DNA of 64,000 bases from contig NC_133233.1 of assembly GCF_040436345.1 (NCBI RefSeq), forward strand, positions 11,241,381 through 11,305,380, given 5' to 3'. Source of the stretch: Pagrus major. Taxonomy: Eukaryota; Chordata; Actinopteri; Spariformes; Sparidae. Of the stretch, positions 13,111 to 64,000 are shown piece by piece; the stretch's first letter is position 1; every line of letters begins with the position of its first letter. Made by a program: the position numbers and the translations under genes. The notes beneath the pieces were generated by a model. That model was given only the letters and a program-made list of their open reading frames with translations. It was not told the origin of the DNA and searched no databases.

Positions 13111-14587
13111 ATGAATCCAGTCTACAGCCCTGCGTCAACAGGGGTCCCCTTCACCAACACTAAGGGCATAGGATATCCAGGTAATTTAATGTTTAAGCAA
13201 ATATTCTTATCCTGAAATCAAGAAAAGTAAAATGTATAATTATATTTTTTGTTGTTCTCTGTTTGGTCATCCTAGCTGGATTCCCTGTTGGCTACGCTGC
13301 TGCTGCGCCGGCATACAACCCCAATGTCTATGCAGGAGCGAACCCAGCCTTCCCCAGTGGTAAGAAAGAAGTCCGCACCTCCTGACTGAACATGACTCTA
13401 AATTCAATAATCAGCAGCACTAACTCAAAGTGTCCTCCTCTCTTCAGGCTATGCTCCGGGCACTCCTTTCAAAATGTCCTGCTCTCCCAACACAGGGACT
13501 GTCCCACCATACTCCTCCTCACCCAACCCCTATTCTGCTGCTGTTTACCCAGTCAGGAGCACCTATCCCCAACAGAGCCCCTATGCACAGGTCAGTGCAC
13601 TGTTGTTGAAGGGTGGCAGATTTTAGCTCTTGGTTCTGGTATTAACATATTACCCACATCTGCCTGAGGATGGTGCTATAATCAGGTCTACACGTCAAAG
13701 TTTGTCACCATGACGTTTTCTTCTGTGTCATTCTCTCTTCTCTTTATCCTGTCACTGCTGCTGATTCAATTCAACTCAATAAACTCATTGTTAGTTGATG
13801 TTTTGAGCCTAAAACTGTGTTTTTCTGTGATCCAGGCATTAATACCTTCACAACAACAAGGCACTTATTACACACAGCCTCTGTATGCGGCACCGCCTCA
13901 TGTTATCCATCACACAACTGTGGTCCAGCCAAATGGGATGCCTGCCGCCATGTACGCCCCACCGATCCCTCCTCCCCGCCACAATGGTGTCGCCATGGGG
14001 ATGGTAGCCGGCACCACCATGGCTATGTCCGCTGGTGAGAATCGGTTTCCATTTTTACATTTATCATGGTTTGTAGGAATGCCAAATTTAAAGTTGTACC
14101 TCAGGGATATTTGGCGATTAGTCCACTATGAGCTTTTTCTGCCCCAAACTGTTGTTATTATATCGACCAATTAAAAATCCAGCATCAGTTGACCTTGAGT
14201 AGTAACTAGGATTAAAGTGCAAGAAATGCTTAGCTTGTTCTTGCAATGTAATCCCGCTAACACGACGCACCCAGGTGGTTTCCAAAAACACTTGCCATGT
14301 GGTTGGATGAACAATCTGTCTTTTCTTCCAATGAAATATACCCTCCAACCCCCCTGTATTTGGCCACAAGCACATAGCTTAAAGCAAGATCTTGCAAATA
14401 CAGCTGTTGCAAAGTGTACGTTATATCAAACATTGTATCACACTTGTACACTTCAATCTGTGGTTGCTTCTCAGGAACTCTGTTGACAACACCATCACCA
14501 GCGCCTGTTGCTCCCCACCAAGTCACGATGCCCACATATCGGCCCCCTGGCACACCCAGCTACAGCTACGTGCCCCCACAATGGTGA
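13111..14587 (+). CDS. fam168b: Myelin-associated neurite-outgrowth inhibitor (FAM168B)
   Basis: Five coding exons (13111-13180, 13276-13359, 13448-13590, 13836-14034, 14475-14587) give 202 aa, against about 195 in human. The protein starts [19 protein letters not shown] and ends SYSYVPPQW. The central block around [16 protein letters not shown] and [19 protein letters not shown] is diagnostic of the FAM168 family. [20 protein letters not shown] marks it as the B rather than the A member. The protein is proline- and tyrosine-rich with hydrophobic stretches. The family is reported at neuronal membranes, where it restrains axon outgrowth through Cdc42-related trafficking. A six-residue ALIPSQ stretch lies at the start of exon 4 that I do not recall in the human protein. 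The stop lies 12 nt before a further splice junction. Confidence 0.93.
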
Positions 14588-49375: not shown

Positions 49376-52300
49376 TCATTGCCTTTGCTCCTCTTTCTGT
49401 GGGCAGAAGGAAAAAAAAACCAGACATCTCACATTCCTGCTCGCTCACCCACGTATATAAAAAGGTCCAATAGCTCATAATATGTACAATAGCTATCCAG
49501 TGCTTATATTTTCTGGAGTATAAGGCTACCCCAGTTATATGTGAATGAAGAACGGTGCATCAGAGTAAAGATTCTACCTTCATTTTCTTCATGACGTTAA
49601 ATGCTCTGATTAACTTGGGTGTCGGTGGCTTCGGTCCAAACAGAGTCAGACCTTTCGGCTTCTCCTCAGCGGTTTTAGCACCTGCAGGGCCTTTGGCTTT
49701 TGTCAGTTTCCTTCACAATCACACACACAAACACACACACACACACAAAATGTAACTTGCAGTTGCACTTTTTGCATATTATGTAGTGTCACAAGCATTT
49801 GTAAATGACTCACTTTCCCTTCCTGGCCAGAACTTTCTGAGACTCTGGGTAGTGGACGAGGATATCGAACAAGTCCTTCTTCTCCAGGACGAAAAGGTTA
49901 GCAAAGCCGTGTGCTTTCACGTTAGCTGTGCGCCTGTTTCCTCCATCTTTGGCAGACTGTAGTAAACTGTGGGGGCAGAGGCAAAAATACACCATGTGTT
50001 CAATGCATAAAGTGATGGGAAAGTTTGAGATATATCTGGGCAATGCAGGACAGTACACAAGCTATAGTCCATAGTCACACAGATCTGAAATGAAGGATCA
50101 CTAATTGCTCCTGCAGACAAACCTGATTTCTCCGAACACACAGCCGGCCTTCAGCGTGACGAACACAATACTGTTGTCAGGACCTCCCACCACCTGCACC
50201 GCTCCACTCTTGATGATGTACATCTCTTTACCGATGTCACCCTGCAGGGAGGGGAACACAGAGGTCAGCATCACACTCATCTTAATAGTTCATTTGCTTC
50301 ATGATGATCACCAAAGCCTATTTATTATAAGATATACCCACTTTCTTGACAACAAAGTCTCCAGGTAGGTAGACGATTGACTTGAGCCTCAGCAACATGT
50401 CCACCAACATCTGCTGGTCACAGCCCTGGAAGAGACAGATTTTTTCTGATTATTGGAATCAGGGTTTTTCTTTTTTTTTATCTGATTGCTGATCAAATAA
50501 ATTCATTTCAAAATGGCTCTGATGCTGCAAAGTAATAACTAAAGGTATCAAATAAATGTAGTGGGGTAAAAAGTGCATCCAAACTGTAGCGAAGTGGAAG
50601 TATAAAGTAACCGAAAATGGAAATACTCACTAGTACAAGTACCTCAAAATTGTACTAAAGTACAGTAATTGCTTAATGTACATCCCATTGCTTGTGTTTA
50701 TTTATGGAGAGTTTATGGATGTAAACACAAAACAAACAGCAAACTCACCACCATGTCAGGCATGAAGGTGGGCAAGTCCAGTTTTTTTTTAACCTCTCTT
50801 AATTTAGTAATATTTTTATTTAATTTAACAATACTGTGAAGATGTGTTGCTCTATTTCTATGCACATGCAGAGTCTAAAAAAGGCTTCAGTTCACAAATT
50901 AAATTAGATTAGCAAACAGATGCTCCTGACAGGGCTGCCCATTAGGGAAAAGGGCAACGTTTCTAGGTCCCATGGAGGCCAGCAATACTCATGTCCATCC
51001 TAGCTAACATACCTAACTAAATTATATTTACTAGCCACTAGTTAGCTAGCGTCAGTGAAGGAAACACCACCACCTGTGAGAAAGAGGATGATGTCAATGA
51101 TGGCAAAGACAATACTGGCTCCTGACCGGAGGACACGGTCAATGTCGGGTCACCTGAAACAGTGCGATCTTCTGGAAGGTGGCCAGGTTGACGTCCACAG
51201 CGATGGCAGTTCTCATCACCAGAGGCATCTTGTCCAGCAGCTCGGACTCATCTGGAGACAACATGGATACGTTGGTCAGAAGCATTTTCTTGACATTCCT
51301 GAATAGTTGCTTTGCCATTTAAATAGTGAGTGAAAAAGTGATTCTTTTGTATCGTCAGGTTTCTTTTTCATTTTTTCGAGGATCCATTTTTGGAGACTCA
51401 CCCAGCATGCCCTGAGCGGTCCAGGTGTAGTTGTACCAGGTCCGCACTCTGTTCTGGACCTCCTTGGGAATCGAGTAGGTGTTCATGTATTCAACACAGC
51501 CGTCCATCGACGCTCGAAAATATGTCTCACCTGCTGTTGCTGCCCCGATGACGTCTCTCATCTGAAAGAAGGTTTTGGGGAGTCAGGTGGTGTAAGTATA
51601 AAGACTGACAGAGAGCAGGGTGTACAGCTCTTTCACCCAGAGCACTGTGGTCAAGTCCTGTATGAAACTTAAATCTCTTTCTTATATTTTTTTTAATCCT
51701 TTAAGAGATTTTGTTTTATGCCTCTCCAATGACTCCACATTTGGTAAGAAGTGAAATCTTAACAGATATAGAATATACATCACAGATTTGTGAATGAAAA
51801 AGTTTCCGTTTTAAAGACTGAATGAATCTACTGATCCTAGATCTGATCCTCTGACAGCTATCACATGACACCTTCCTACCTGTCCAATCAAACTGGAGAA
51901 CACAAAGACGCCAATGAAAAAGTTCGACAGCTGAAAGGAAATCTCAAAGGTGGTCGTAGGCTCTGGAAGACCGCCGATGTTGATCAGACTTCGGACAGCG
52001 AAGTAGTAACAGCGGATGTACCTGTGAGGGGACAGGGAGCATGATTCCTGTGTAGCAGAATGCAGAAAAAACTCAAACAAAATGGTGGACAGGCGGTGAT
52101 TTACTCTAGAGAGCCTGCATGAGATTTGAAAGTGATAATAGCTGCATGGCAGAGAGTTCAGACAACAACACGAACATCTGTAATCATAAACAACTGGACA
52201 AAGTATTGAAGTACATACGCTGTGCCCTTTCCGTCATACACCCATGTAGTCTTTCCAAGACCCTGATGTACTGAGGCAACGTAAAACAAACAGGCGTTGA

Positions 52301-58507: not shown

Positions 58508-61500
58508 CTAGCGTCCAGCAGCACTCTGGGGGAAAGAAATAACAGAATAATGTGTGATTAGCAGTCAGCATAACTTTATACGACCACATCTAGACAGAAA
58601 TGTGAGCGCTGTTACCTTCATTTTGTCAATAAATCCTTTGTTAATGGTTCCGCCGACGGCACGCAGCAGTTTGGGTGTGGGCGGTTTGGGTCCGAACAGC
58701 GCCAGTCCTTTCTTCTTCTCCTCTTCTACTTTAGCTGCGGCCGGACCCTTCGCCCTCATTAGTTTCCTACACACAGAAACATAGAGGCTGGTTAAACAGA
58801 GTGAAGGAAATACGCTGTGAAGAATGAAAAGCTGGTACAAAAAACACTTTTGCTGAATTTCCCCCTTGTGACAACTGTAGGGCGGGTCAATCAGGCTTAA
58901 CCGCAGCTGATTCCAGTCACTGATCTTGACCTCTGTCATGTTTGTGCTGTTGGTACCTATTATAGATTTTTTTTTACAAATATGGAACAAATAATATGGC
59001 TCGCTGTGAGGTTTACTGTATTAACAGAGCGCAGGGGAGGGACAGACGCCGGTATTTTGGATTAGCGACGACCCTGTTAACTGGCAGACAGCTGTGACAG
59101 CTTCTTGAGTAATAAACACCTGGAGATGAGGAGAGCAATTCTTCTTTGGGGGATATTTTTCTGGTGGCACCCTGACTTCAGTGTATCAATAATAGGATGG
59201 TAAAGTGTTCCTGGACATAGTAACTGTAAAAATATTATATACACTATAATAATATCATATTGGAAACGCGTTATATTACTCTGTTACTGCTTAAAGAAAT
59301 ACACCACTGTACATTACCCCCAGCACTGGTTATTGTGAAGGTGAGTAAGAAAGTAATAAATTGCCAAAAATTATAATCTGTTTGCGCATGTTATGATCCA
59401 TCTCCTTTGAAACCACTGTGACTTTGACTGTGCCTCCGACTCACCTTCCCTTCCTGGCCAACACTTTCTGAGACTCGGGGTAGTGCACCAGGATGTCAAA
59501 CAGGTCCTTCTTCTCCAGGACAAAGAGGTTAGCAAAGCCGTAGGCTTTTACATTAGCTGTCCGCCTGTTCCCTCCATCTTTAGACGACTGCAGCAGACTG
59601 AGACAAAAACAAACAAGCAAACCATTTCGTGACTGAAAATTCTTTGAAAGTGGTTTTCGTCTGTGGATTTGAATCTATAGTCGTCTGTGCACATCAAACA
59701 TCTGTGCTGATGTTTATCACAGTGTGACAATTAGAAACTTACAATACTCTAAGATTTGTTCCTCAGACTGCAGATTCGGTCTGACAAAGAGAAACAGTGA
59801 ACTCTATCTCACCTGATTTCTCCGAACACACAGCCGGCCTTCAGCGTGACGAACACAATACTGTTGTCAGGACCTCCCACCACCTGCACCGCTCCACTCT
59901 TAATGATGTACATCTCTTTACCGATGTCACCCTGCAGGGAGGGACGAGTCATATACATACAGAAAGATAACCAACACATGACAGGTTGTTAAGAACAGAC
60001 AGCAGATATTTACATAAAGGATCCAGGATGATGATAATATGACAATAACTCACTTTTTTAACAACAAAGTCTCCAGGTAGATAGACGATAGACTTGAGCC
60101 TCAGCAACATGTCCACCAACATCTGCTGGTCACAGCCCTGTGAAGAAAATCAAACAATTAAAAAAAAGGTTTGATTTCATATCCAAGCTGCAGCGTGCCT
60201 GTGTTACTGTGTGCTGTGGGGTCTTTAGAAGAGGCACCTTGAAAAGATCGATCTTCTGAAAGGTTGTCAGGTTGATGTCCACAGCGATGGCGGTTCTCAT
60301 CACCAGAGGCATCTTGTCCAGCAGCTCGGACTCATCTGAAAGCATCGAGATAATACAGAAGGGGTGGTACCAATCTTTTTAATGATTCAGTATGTGGGTG
60401 TCACAATATACGGATATTAACGATAATCATGATAGATGGCAGACGAGTCTGAGAGGCATCTTTTTTATTTGTTTGTATGAATGTTTGTTACATTCCGACT
60501 GAGCACTGTGTTACTGACCCAGCATGCCCTGTGCGTCCCAGGTGTAGGTGTACCAGGTGCGGACTCGGTTCTGCACTAAATTGGGGATGTGGTTGGTCAC
60601 CATGTACTCCACGGTGCCGTCCATAGAGGCTCGGAAGTACGTCTGTCCTGCTGTGGCTGCACCGATGACATCTCTCATCTGAGGCAAGATGGCGGAGACA
60701 ATAAACACATGAACAGAGGAAAATAGCACATCAATGACAGTCAAACAGTAGATATTAATGGAATTTGTTGTTAAAATGCTATATTAACACATTAATAAGC
60801 CTTTTCACAGTCAAGACTCCACAGGGAACCAGAGAGAGACAGTTGAAGCGATGGTTGATGGGCTGTTAGTGAAGCTATTACGCTACGATGACTGATGATT
60901 GTCAGTATCATTTCTAACATGACATTCATCTCTCACTACGTCAGTACAACAAACAGGTGATGACACGCTACTCTGGAGACGCTAATTTCTATCAGGTTTC
61001 TAGACGGTGCTACGGGCAGAATGAGCCTCGAGGTTACCTGTCCAATCAAACTGGAGAACACAAAGACGCCCGTGAAAAAGTTTGTCATCTGAAAGGTAAT
61101 CTCAAAGACGGTATGGGGTTCGCTAAGACCCCCGATGTTGATCAGACTGCGGACGGCGTGGTAGTAACAACGCAGGTACCTGTGGAGAGGGTGGGGGCGT
61201 TAGAGGCGCTGTCACAATCTACACTACAGTCACTGGCCTGTTTTTTGGACAGAAAGACAGAAGTTTGTGTGAACATGTGGTTTTGGGGGGGAGGGTGTCA
61301 GTCTGTAAATCATTGTTATTTCTCTTTCAAGTTTGATTCCCTTGATGCCTTGCTGAAAAAAAAACCCATTGAAAATGAAAAAAAAAAAAAAAAAAGCAGA
61401 AAAAGATTTAAAAATATTACATAATTGACTACCTGGGCAAGAAAGATGGACATAAACAAAGCCCCAAAAAGGTAGTTTGTCATCTGAAAGATCTGTCCGA

Positions 61501-64000
61501 ACATGGTGTCTGGAAACGGCAACTCAGCGATCATCAGCAGGGACTTCTCCGCATAGAAGAAGCAGCTGAGGTAACTGCGGCAGCAGCAGACATGGAACAT
61601 ACAATGAATCTTTAACATGGGATTGTCTTTGATAGAGAAAAGGTATGTTCCATATTCAGGTTGTCATATTCTACTCTCACCACAGCTGTGTTATTTTGTC
61701 TGGTCTATGGTTTAAAGGTCCAACATGTAGGATTTAGGGGGGATCTATTAGCAGAAATGTAATATAATATTCAGAATTATGTTTTGATGAGTGTATAATC
61801 ACCTTAAACTAGCAATCGTTGTGTTTTTGGCACCATCATGTTTCTACAGGAGCCCAAAATGGACAAACCAAACACTGGCTCTAGAGAGGACCTTTATCCC
61901 GTTTTCATGTTTTCAGCAGCCAACATAGGGGAGGGTGAGACGAGGGGTGTTCAGTTGGTTGCAGTCTGCTACCTCACAGCTCGAAGCTGCTGAATCCTAC
62001 ACACTGGACCTTTAACCGTCTTTAAAACTGAGCAATATGAGTACATTAACCTGGTAACCACCAAAGTCCTCACATCTGAGCAGTTTGCTAATGGTGTGAT
62101 TATACTGCACTGCCCTAATGTGTTGACATCAGTCCAACATGTGTTCATGAGCAGATCTTAATGAGACAGAAGTATCAGTGTGTTTAGTATTAACTACTGA
62201 TACTCAGAAAAACTTCAGATCAGTTCTGGTCTTAAGTGTGTAACACAAACCTGAATGTCAAACACTCAACACGGGCAGGAAATGAAAGGTTTTGTACTTA
62301 CGCGCTGCCGTTACCAGAGTAGACCCATTTAGTTTGCCCAATGCCCTGGTAGTCTGACGCCACATAGTAAAAGCAGGCGTTGATGTGGAGCATGAAGAGA
62401 AGATAGCCGATGGTCCGAATCACTCTGACGGAAAAGAAAAGGTCGGTTAAGTTCTTCATTTTTCTCTCGTTCTAATTTGAATGTTTATGGATGAACTACA
62501 CAGATTTTATTAACCATTTACAACACGTCATAAGCACCAGTTGCAACTTTGTAATAAACAATTACCTAATGAAAGGTTTATAAAGCATTTCATTGTTTGT
62601 TAACAGTGAAATAACTATTAATTAATGTTCAATTAACTATAAATTTACCATTTGTTAATAATGATAAGTATGAGTTGACATAATGAGCTACACCACAACA
62701 CAGTAACTGTTACACATTCACCTTAGAGTCTACAGTTATTATTTCCTTATTTCTTTCACATACATGATTATATAGTATTTAAACGTAGCTGATGTTAAGT
62801 CAAACACCTCGAAAGACACGTGTTTATTATTGTTAATTCATTTAATTTTTGTTTTTAATTTACATTAATTCATTTTTATATACTTTTTAACTCATTATTT
62901 TCTAATTTTTTAATTAAAAATGTTCTTATTTCAATATCAACTATGTGCATATTACTTTATTTAATTTCCTAATGGCTCCAAGACTACATGCATAATTGTA
63001 AGAACGGTGAAAATGAGTCTTACCTCCAGATGTAAGCCTTGGCCATGATGCTCTCTAGTCGATCGCTGAACTCAAAAAATGTATCTGCCTTGAGAAGGAG
63101 CGTGAGAATGTTACTCTGGTAAACTGACTTTAGCGTGTTTTGATCAAAACAAAGGGCACCGTGAGTAAATTCACCTTCAGCAGACGATTGGCTCTGAAAA
63201 TGGATTTGAATCCAAACTGGAAGTACAGCAAGTCGAACGGGAGGAGGCACATCAAGTCAATCTGGTGAGCAGAGACACGTGTGTGAGGTCACTGAGGTGA
63301 GATCACCCTCATGCTCCAGGTTCAAACAATTCAAGTTACCGTACCGTGAATCTCTCTGATTCTCTGTAGTTCTTCTTTGTCATCACTCTGTCTTTCTAAA
63401 AAGGAAGAAGATAACACAGTCATGTTACGTCATAAATGTTCAGTAACAGGCGCTGTTGTCAGGACTATCTGAGGCTTACTATGATGTCTCCTCCTTTGAC
63501 AAACTGCTTGCGGGGCTGGAAGATGATGGTGTCTATGAGGTAGATGAGGTCGGCCAGCAAATCGGCGGCAAACCATTGAGGGTTAGTGTTCTCGTTGTGG
63601 TACGGGAAACATAGGCGGGCCGTGGCGAACCAGGTGTTGTAGTTGAAGGCCAGAGTCACCAGGCTCAGCCAGGCGATGTAGCGGCGGTCTGTGAAAGGGT
63701 CTATGGTCGTCCCAATCACAGAGTCCATCTGGTCCTCGATGGGCTTCAGCACAGCATCCACCACAGACCAGGAGGCTTCTTTCAACCTTGTCTCCATGGC
63801 CTTCTTCTCCACCGTTTTCTCCTGCTCTGCAGCCTCTGCTTTCTTTTTCTCCGCCTCCTCTTTCTTCTTCTCCTCTGCCTCCTTCTTCTTTTTCTCAGCC
63901 TCCTCCTTCTTCTTCTTCTCGGCCTCCTCCTTCTTTATCCGGTCCTCCTCTGCTTGCCTTTTCCTCTCCTCTATGACTCTTGTGTAGTCATCTTTGAGAA
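58508..64000 (-). CDS. cngb3: CNG channel beta 3 subunit, copy B (5' end outside window)
   Basis: Exons from the right edge: 64000-63480 (continuing outward), 63395-63345, 63261-63175, 63088-63024, 62424-62302, a pore exon (61179-61038 or 61574-61433), 60678-60519, 60335-60238, 60137-60054, 59931-59813, 59597-59445, 58766-58616, 58525-58508. Exon lengths equal those of copy A from the KDRVMTKK exon through the NRRTANV exon. The first visible exon codes a Lys/Glu/Ala coiled coil, then S1-S2 ([28 protein letters not shown]) without the intron present in copy A. The C-linker, VFGEIS and NRRTANV are intact; the tail ends KMKSAAGR. A frame-preserving second pore exon is described separately. Zebrafish also carries two tandem cngb3 genes, so the pair is probably an old teleost duplication. 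Confidence 0.87.
61038..61179 (-). CDS. cngb3: cngb3 copy B, standard pore exon
   Basis: A 142 nt exon, entered after two codon bases (GC|G) and left in phase 0, reading [18 protein letters not shown] then [15 protein letters not shown] and ending FSSLIGQ. It corresponds to copy A 52021-51880 ([10 protein letters not shown]) and to the human pore LITIGGLPEP. Acceptor ...CCACAG and donor GTAACC are normal. Confidence 0.85.
61433..61574 (-). CDS. cngb3: cngb3 copy B, alternative pore exon (duplicate)
   Basis: A second 142 nt open exon between the S5-containing exon (62424-62302) and the standard pore exon, with the same phases (GC|T in, CAG| out). It reads [18 protein letters not shown], then [18 protein letters not shown], and ends MSIFLAQ. 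It shares 19 of 47 residues with the standard exon, including FQMTN, and 17 identical nt there (ctttcagatgacaaact). Acceptor GCTGCTGCCGCAG, donor GTAGTC (somewhat weak). The filter reads MIAE instead of NIGG. No equivalent exists in the 197 nt intron of copy A. Confidence 0.7.
61712..62015 (+). mobile_element. MITE, family 3, with TTAAAGGTCC...GGACCTTTAA ends
   Basis: The left end TTAAAGGTCCAACATGTAGG and the right end CCTACACACTGGACCTTTAA are inverted repeats. The interior (ggggggatctattagcagaa, aatcgttgtgtttttggcac) is a familiar fish element. It lies in the intron between the S5 exon and the alternative pore exon of cngb3 copy B. Confidence 0.7.
62425..63023 (-). other. AT-rich intron of cngb3 copy B
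   Basis: A 0.6 kb intron. Around 62540-62660 it holds a degraded repeat (aataaacaattacctaatga, taactattaattaatgttca) similar in style to the element at 45655-46310. Otherwise it is simple A/T sequence with no coding signal. Confidence 0.4.

Follow-up and report, generated by a model that had tools for sequence, protein, structure and literature searches.

A candidate pair of mutually exclusive pore exons in a fish cngb3 gene, one carrying a CNGA-type filter glutamate

Results

Two cngb3 copies and a duplicated pore exon

The window analysed here – a stretch of 64,000 nucleotides of Pagrus major DNA – holds two cngb3 copies, A and B, the second of which contains two pore exons in tandem, one canonical and one alternative (ALT) (Table 1). 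Elsewhere in the window, an open frame on the forward strand (13710-14174) carries a match to Pfam TCRP1 (PF14944; residues 49-109, E 2.3e-35), which we take to be the FAM168 family.

Table 1. Features of the two cngb3 copies, in window coordinates
Feature	Position	Strand	Length	Basis or remark
cngb3 copy B	58508..63999	-		5' end beyond the window end at 64000; clean splice sites
Upstream exon common to both isoforms, S5 region	62302..62424	-	123 nt	Length equals human exon 10
Alternative (ALT) pore exon, filter MIAE	61433..61574	-	142 nt, 47 residues	Splice sites, frame, homologous database exons
Intron between ALT and canonical exons	61180..61432	-	253 nt	
Canonical pore exon, filter NIGG	61038..61179	-	142 nt, 47 residues	Counterpart of human CNGB3 exon 11
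Downstream exon common to both isoforms, end of S6 and C-linker	60519..60678	-	160 nt	Encodes the arginine gate (human CNGB3 R442)
Sole pore exon found in cngb3 copy A, canonical type	51880..52021	-		tblastn and exon comparison

In copy B, the ALT exon (61574-61433) is bounded by an acceptor ending in GCCGCAG and a donor GTAGTC, and the canonical exon (61179-61038) by an acceptor ending in CTCCACAG and a donor GTAACC; the introns measure 727 nt before ALT, 253 nt between the two exons and 359 nt after the canonical one. Each exon opens with the third base of a split codon and finishes on a complete one, and the products of the two are identical at 19 of 47 residues. Copy B exons of 65, 123, 142 and 98 nt equal human CNGB3 exons 9, 10, 11 and 13 in length (human values from the available text of PMC12146803), which makes the canonical pore exon the counterpart of human exon 11, the skipping of which leads to p.(Y394*) according to the same text. 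The pair is thus adjacent, homologous, equal in length and phase, and provided with GT-AG sites at both exons, as expected of mutually exclusive tandem exons. Splice-site strength is not decisive for the use of ALT: of the 13 acceptor pyrimidine tracts scored in the copy B gene, that of ALT ranks last (0.65, canonical 0.82), and the pairing of the donors with U1 is about equal (ALT -7.8, canonical -8.0).

With either exon alone, the window part of copy B reads 589 aa to a single terminal stop. Including both ends the reading frame after 347 aa, at a stop within the canonical exon and 853 nt before the last exon junction; including neither brings one after 282 aa, in the next exon and 764 nt before that junction. 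A first-pass annotation had described two open 142-nt exons lying 253 nt apart with GT-AG sites, matching phases and this degree of identity, all of which were found again in the sequence; its further claims, that only one exon per transcript gives a full protein because 142 is not a multiple of three, and that a tandem duplication comes with an exclusivity enforced by the frame, are borne out by the exon anatomy and the frame tests.

How readily could such a pair arise by chance? When the canonical exon was randomly mutated at 67 sites, the observed nucleotide distance, in 200,000 trials, the frame stayed open in 24% of them, was open with at least 19 identities in 0.04%, and reached the observed BLOSUM62 similarity in a single trial of the 200,000. 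The two exons differ at 16, 18 and 32 of 47 sites at first, second and third codon positions, third positions being the most often changed. Independently of this, an uninterrupted stretch of 17 nt (CTTTCAGATGACAAACT) is common to 61433-61574 and 61038-61179, in exons that agree at only 75 of 142 sites overall; either conversion between the exons or shared constraint could account for it.

The ALT exon in other fishes

Searching other teleosts with the ALT translation had been proposed as a check, and the exon proved to be conserved in fishes. The query comprised the ALT exon with 25 flanking residues (72 residues in all); 141 of 164 candidate proteins passed and 120 of these were listed. An exon was called on the 47-residue segment of each protein that aligned best without gaps, the threshold being 31 identities for ALT and 36 for canonical; this placed ALT in 36 and canonical in 83 of the 120 listed proteins, two (P0001 and P0002) falling in both sets and three in neither; since several rows are close relatives or come from one species, these are not counts of independent events. 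Among the matches listed, the teleost carriers of ALT are flatfishes, perches, swordfish, cichlids, minnow, goldfish, catfishes, a characin, anchovy, denticle herring, smelt and salmonids, and the other carriers are gar, Polypterus, the chimaera Callorhinchus and the sharks Pristiophorus and Scyliorhinus; zebrafish is not among them. Identity over the searched region runs, for the listed ALT-only proteins, from 94% in turbot down to 67-69% in cartilaginous fishes, and 15 of the 47 ALT columns are identical across the window and 35 database proteins (P0001 was omitted from this count and included in the residue counts below). This comparative conservation is stronger proof of the ALT exon than the chance test. 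The refutation proposed in the first-pass annotation, in-frame stops in close relatives, is answered indirectly by the same conservation, because the comparison covered protein entries, where a disrupted exon leaves no trace.

A shark query (14 proteins of 17 candidates) and a composite query (29 of 159) again returned only cartilaginous and ray-finned fishes; neither gave an ALT exon in tetrapods, lobe-finned fishes or lampreys, which is weak evidence of absence because the search needs many shared exact words, and gar itself was missed with the shark query.

A single gene with both exons was observed in teleosts only: in the window, in Denticeps clupeoides, and in turbot, Astatotilapia and Sphaeramia, where the forms also show longer end and indel differences. 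The two Denticeps proteins, X1 (P0061) and X2 (P0021), are gene models of 758 aa each; their 28 differences are confined to the 47 residues of the exon. For gar, Polypterus, the chimaera and the sharks, the proteins listed contain ALT only, and labels such as 'isoform X2' and 'X3' hint at other forms; as far as can be told, such labels come from automatic gene models. One protein of 610 aa with ALT only (P0016) lies on a contig of 2,226 bp, which is too short for so many exons and their introns, so that this contig is probably a cDNA. The exon pair itself appears to mislead annotation: P0001 and P0002 carry both pore exons in one protein, P0030-P0032 (counted as canonical) fuse the first half of ALT with the canonical exon, and P0039, P0040 and P0043 (in neither set) are chimeras, all of which are probably annotation errors caused by the pair. 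P0022 and P0025, counted as they stand, seem to run into the intron at the exon end.

Copy A and the teleost duplicates

The absence of an ALT counterpart from copy A, already noted in the first-pass annotation, was confirmed in two ways. A tblastn search of the whole window with ALT found, apart from ALT itself, both canonical exons and a single weak hit (E 3.2), and no relic of ALT was detected in the copy A introns flanking the pore exon, where the scores were reached by 355 and 392 of 500 shuffles. A local cngb3 duplication has been placed in the teleost ancestor, with a single CNGB3 in gar and reedfish (Lagman and colleagues, available text of PMC9803222), and most simply ALT would have been lost from copy A. 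As a separate observation, the canonical pore exons of A and B end in an identical run of 33 nt (51880-51912 and 61038-61070) but differ at 24 of 142 sites as a whole, perhaps through gene conversion.

Compared over the upstream flank, every one of the 34 listed proteins with ALT alone resembles copy B more than copy A. On the downstream side, copy A is marginally the better match for gar, Polypterus and both sharks, Callorhinchus and Silurus favour neither copy, and P0037 is too short for the comparison. As gar, Polypterus and the cartilaginous fishes stand outside the teleost cngb3 duplication, a copy-B-like upstream flank shows only that copy A has diverged more. Of the proteins listed, a Sparus aurata entry labelled 'tandem duplicate 2' comes closest to copy B, at 91.5% across the window part. 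The available text of PMC8405809 reports that zebrafish cngb3 duplicates differ by cone type, with cngb3.2 enriched in UV cones; since 'tandem duplicate' numbers are inconsistent between species, a trout ALT protein being 'tandem duplicate 1', a link between copy B and UV cones is a lead only.

Pore residues altered by the ALT exon

We used human numbering, in which the YLRC of CNGB3 chain 8etp_D starts at 394, in agreement with p.(Y394*) for exon 11 skipping; the ALT exon then covers positions 394-440. In the available text of PMC10761061, residues 407-410 (TIGG) of CNGB3 form the selectivity filter, with a glutamate in CNGA where CNGB has glycine; R403 is directed at the filter and is expected to reduce the strength of Ca2+ binding; the cavity gate consists of F434 and I438, and the arginine gate of R442. 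Among the matches listed, position 410 is Gly in all 83 canonical exons, and in the 36 ALT exons it is Glu 35 times and Asp once; the window ALT has Glu. The neighbouring positions follow the same division, again among the matches listed: 403 is Arg in every canonical exon (83/83) and Lys in every ALT exon (36/36); 409 is canonically Gly (83/83) and in ALT Ala (34) or Gly (2); 407 is canonically Asn (80) or Thr (3) and in ALT Met (33) or Leu (3); and 434 is canonically Phe (83/83) and in ALT Leu (19) or Met (17). The S6 hinge glycine, Gly430, is kept in all 36 listed ALT exons. The canonical filter of the listed exons is itself mostly NIGG and not the human TIGG, Asn standing at 407 in those 80 of 83.

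The ALT product therefore does not have the CNGB-type glycine at 410 and, with its Glu there, is the product of a CNGB3 gene with a CNGA-like filter acid. Outside the pore exon, the best match among solved structures is a CNGB3 chain (E 2.1e-57 over 151 aa), followed by CNGB1 (6.7e-56), and the arginine gate R442 is kept in both isoforms through the common downstream exon (QMRDV). Pfam Ion_trans and cNMP_binding are both found in the relatives P0021 and P0061, Ion_trans scoring slightly lower in the Denticeps ALT isoform (51.3 bits) than in the canonical one (56.8 bits). AlphaFold models of ALT P0021 and canonical P0061, built from 25-row alignments, had mean pLDDT values of 50.9 and 45.4 and lend no support either way.

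Age of the exon pair

A tree of the 47 exon columns was built from 18 chosen database ALT sequences and the window ALT, 13 chosen database canonical sequences and the window's two, and four solved-structure rows. All 19 ALT sequences form one clade with a support of 100/100, a stem of 1.69 substitutions per site and the cartilaginous fishes at its base; ALT evolved quickly to begin with and was conserved thereafter. This stem joins the canonical exons next to Chanos with a bootstrap of only 48%, and human CNGB1 sits within the canonical CNGB3 sequences, so that 47 columns do not decide whether the duplication is older or younger than the split between CNGB1 and CNGB3. Because ALT occurs in sharks and teleosts, and the canonical exon in teleosts, human CNGB3 and CNGB1, the ancestor of jawed vertebrates would most simply have had both exons, and the pair thus probably predates their last common ancestor.

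Discussion

Taken from its sequence and that of its relatives, copy B very probably holds an ancient pair of mutually exclusive pore exons making two working isoforms. In this scheme, the S5 exon would be spliced to either ALT or the canonical exon, and transcripts with both or neither would suffer a frameshift and presumably be removed by nonsense-mediated decay. The ALT isoform would keep the voltage-sensor-like domain, the C-linker, the cyclic-nucleotide-binding domain and the arginine gate, and exchange the pore helix, the selectivity filter and most of S6: the change of filter from (T/N)IGG to MIAE would restore the CNGA glutamate, accompanied by Lys for Arg at 403 and by Leu or Met for Phe in the cavity gate. 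Should ALT CNGB3 co-assemble in the usual tetramer of three CNGA and one CNGB, a CNGA3 trimer with one ALT subunit would present four filter acids instead of three, and the choice of exon would set Ca2+ block and permeation, with stronger block, lower conductance in physiological Ca2+, and altered permeation and gating.

According to the available text of PMC10761061, Ca2+ blocks native channels less than CNGA homomers, for which the filter glutamate of CNGA and its lack in CNGB are a main explanation put forward, and a Gly-to-Glu mutant of CNGB1 expressed with CNGA1 had a much enhanced Ca2+ block. Judged by its residues, the ALT exon amounts to a natural version of that mutant in the cone subunit, altered at further positions as well. 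We give a stronger Ca2+ block in the ALT isoform roughly even chances; G409A and T/N407M also alter the filter, so its response to Ca2+ need not be the same as in CNGA.

What else could the ALT exon be doing? Perhaps the ALT subunit does not conduct, and acts as a dominant-negative or trafficking subunit that lowers the current of cone or other CNG channels. The substitutions do strike filter and gate together; however, a channel can conduct with a filter glutamate and a hydrophobic cavity gate, as CNGA does, and the hinge glycine at 430 is invariant in the listed ALT exons, and we regard this reading as unlikely. Less likely by some distance is that the pair serves mainly as an expression switch, in which inclusion of both exons or neither yields unproductive mRNA and the ALT protein matters little: an exon length that is not a multiple of three, with early stops after wrong choices, would suit a switch, but the ALT protein sequence is constrained, at the pore positions above all, and a poison exon needs no conserved amino acids. 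That ALT is a relic out of use in Pagrus major, as its poor pyrimidine tract and its absence from copy A might suggest, is highly improbable against an open window exon 94% identical to the turbot protein over the searched 72 residues, 15 invariant columns of 47, and a probable cDNA contig (P0016) in another fish.

The ALT product can be compared with several known systems. It belongs with canonical CNGB3 and human exon 11 in gene, exon length, place and phase and in all its flanking domains, and departs from them in sharing only the 19 residues in the window exon, in MIAE against (T/N)IGG, in K403 and in L/M434. With CNGA subunits, whose filter is TIGE, it has the glutamate in common; unlike them, the ALT exon groups with CNGB, far from CNGA in the exon tree, and its product keeps the arginine gate in the next exon. 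Alternative exons of a single channel gene also swap filter residues in NALCN (EEEE against EKEE or EEKE), but that is a different family, in which alternative pores occur from flatworms to non-chordate deuterostomes and vertebrates have one form (available text of PMC3557258), whereas CNGB3 ALT is found in fishes and exchanges a CNGB glycine for a CNGA glutamate. Human and fly tandem duplicated or mutually exclusive exons are likewise tandem, exclusive, ancient and enriched in ion channels (available texts of PMC9741552 and PMC5740500); these surveys start from human and fly, and CNG gene terms occur 0 times in their main texts as available.

The first-pass annotation held that alternative pore exons are known in some other channel families and that none is known to have been described for CNGB3, and this agrees with NALCN and with the open-access part of PMC, in whose titles and abstract openings we found no description of an alternative pore exon in CNG channels. 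In the available text of Lagman 2022 (PMC9803222), 'exon' appears 0 times and 'isoform' once, in the reference list. Exclusive tandem exons and alternative filters are thus already known; what appears to be new here is the CNGB3 case with its CNGA-type glutamate.

To conclude, it is about an even bet that the cone CNG channel passed down to jawed vertebrates had a Ca2+ filter selectable by splicing, an option that tetrapods would have lost and that teleosts would have confined to one of two tandem cngb3 genes; if true, photoreceptor classes or other sensory cells could set their Ca2+ block, single-channel noise and adaptation by splicing. The change opposite to the CNGA/CNGB filter difference arose in a beta subunit and persists from sharks to teleosts in a cassette that is probably splice-selectable, a natural experiment on the tuning of cone Ca2+ flux. 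The exon pair also matters wherever fish CNGB3 is handled as a single protein, and for gene models in which both exons are fused.
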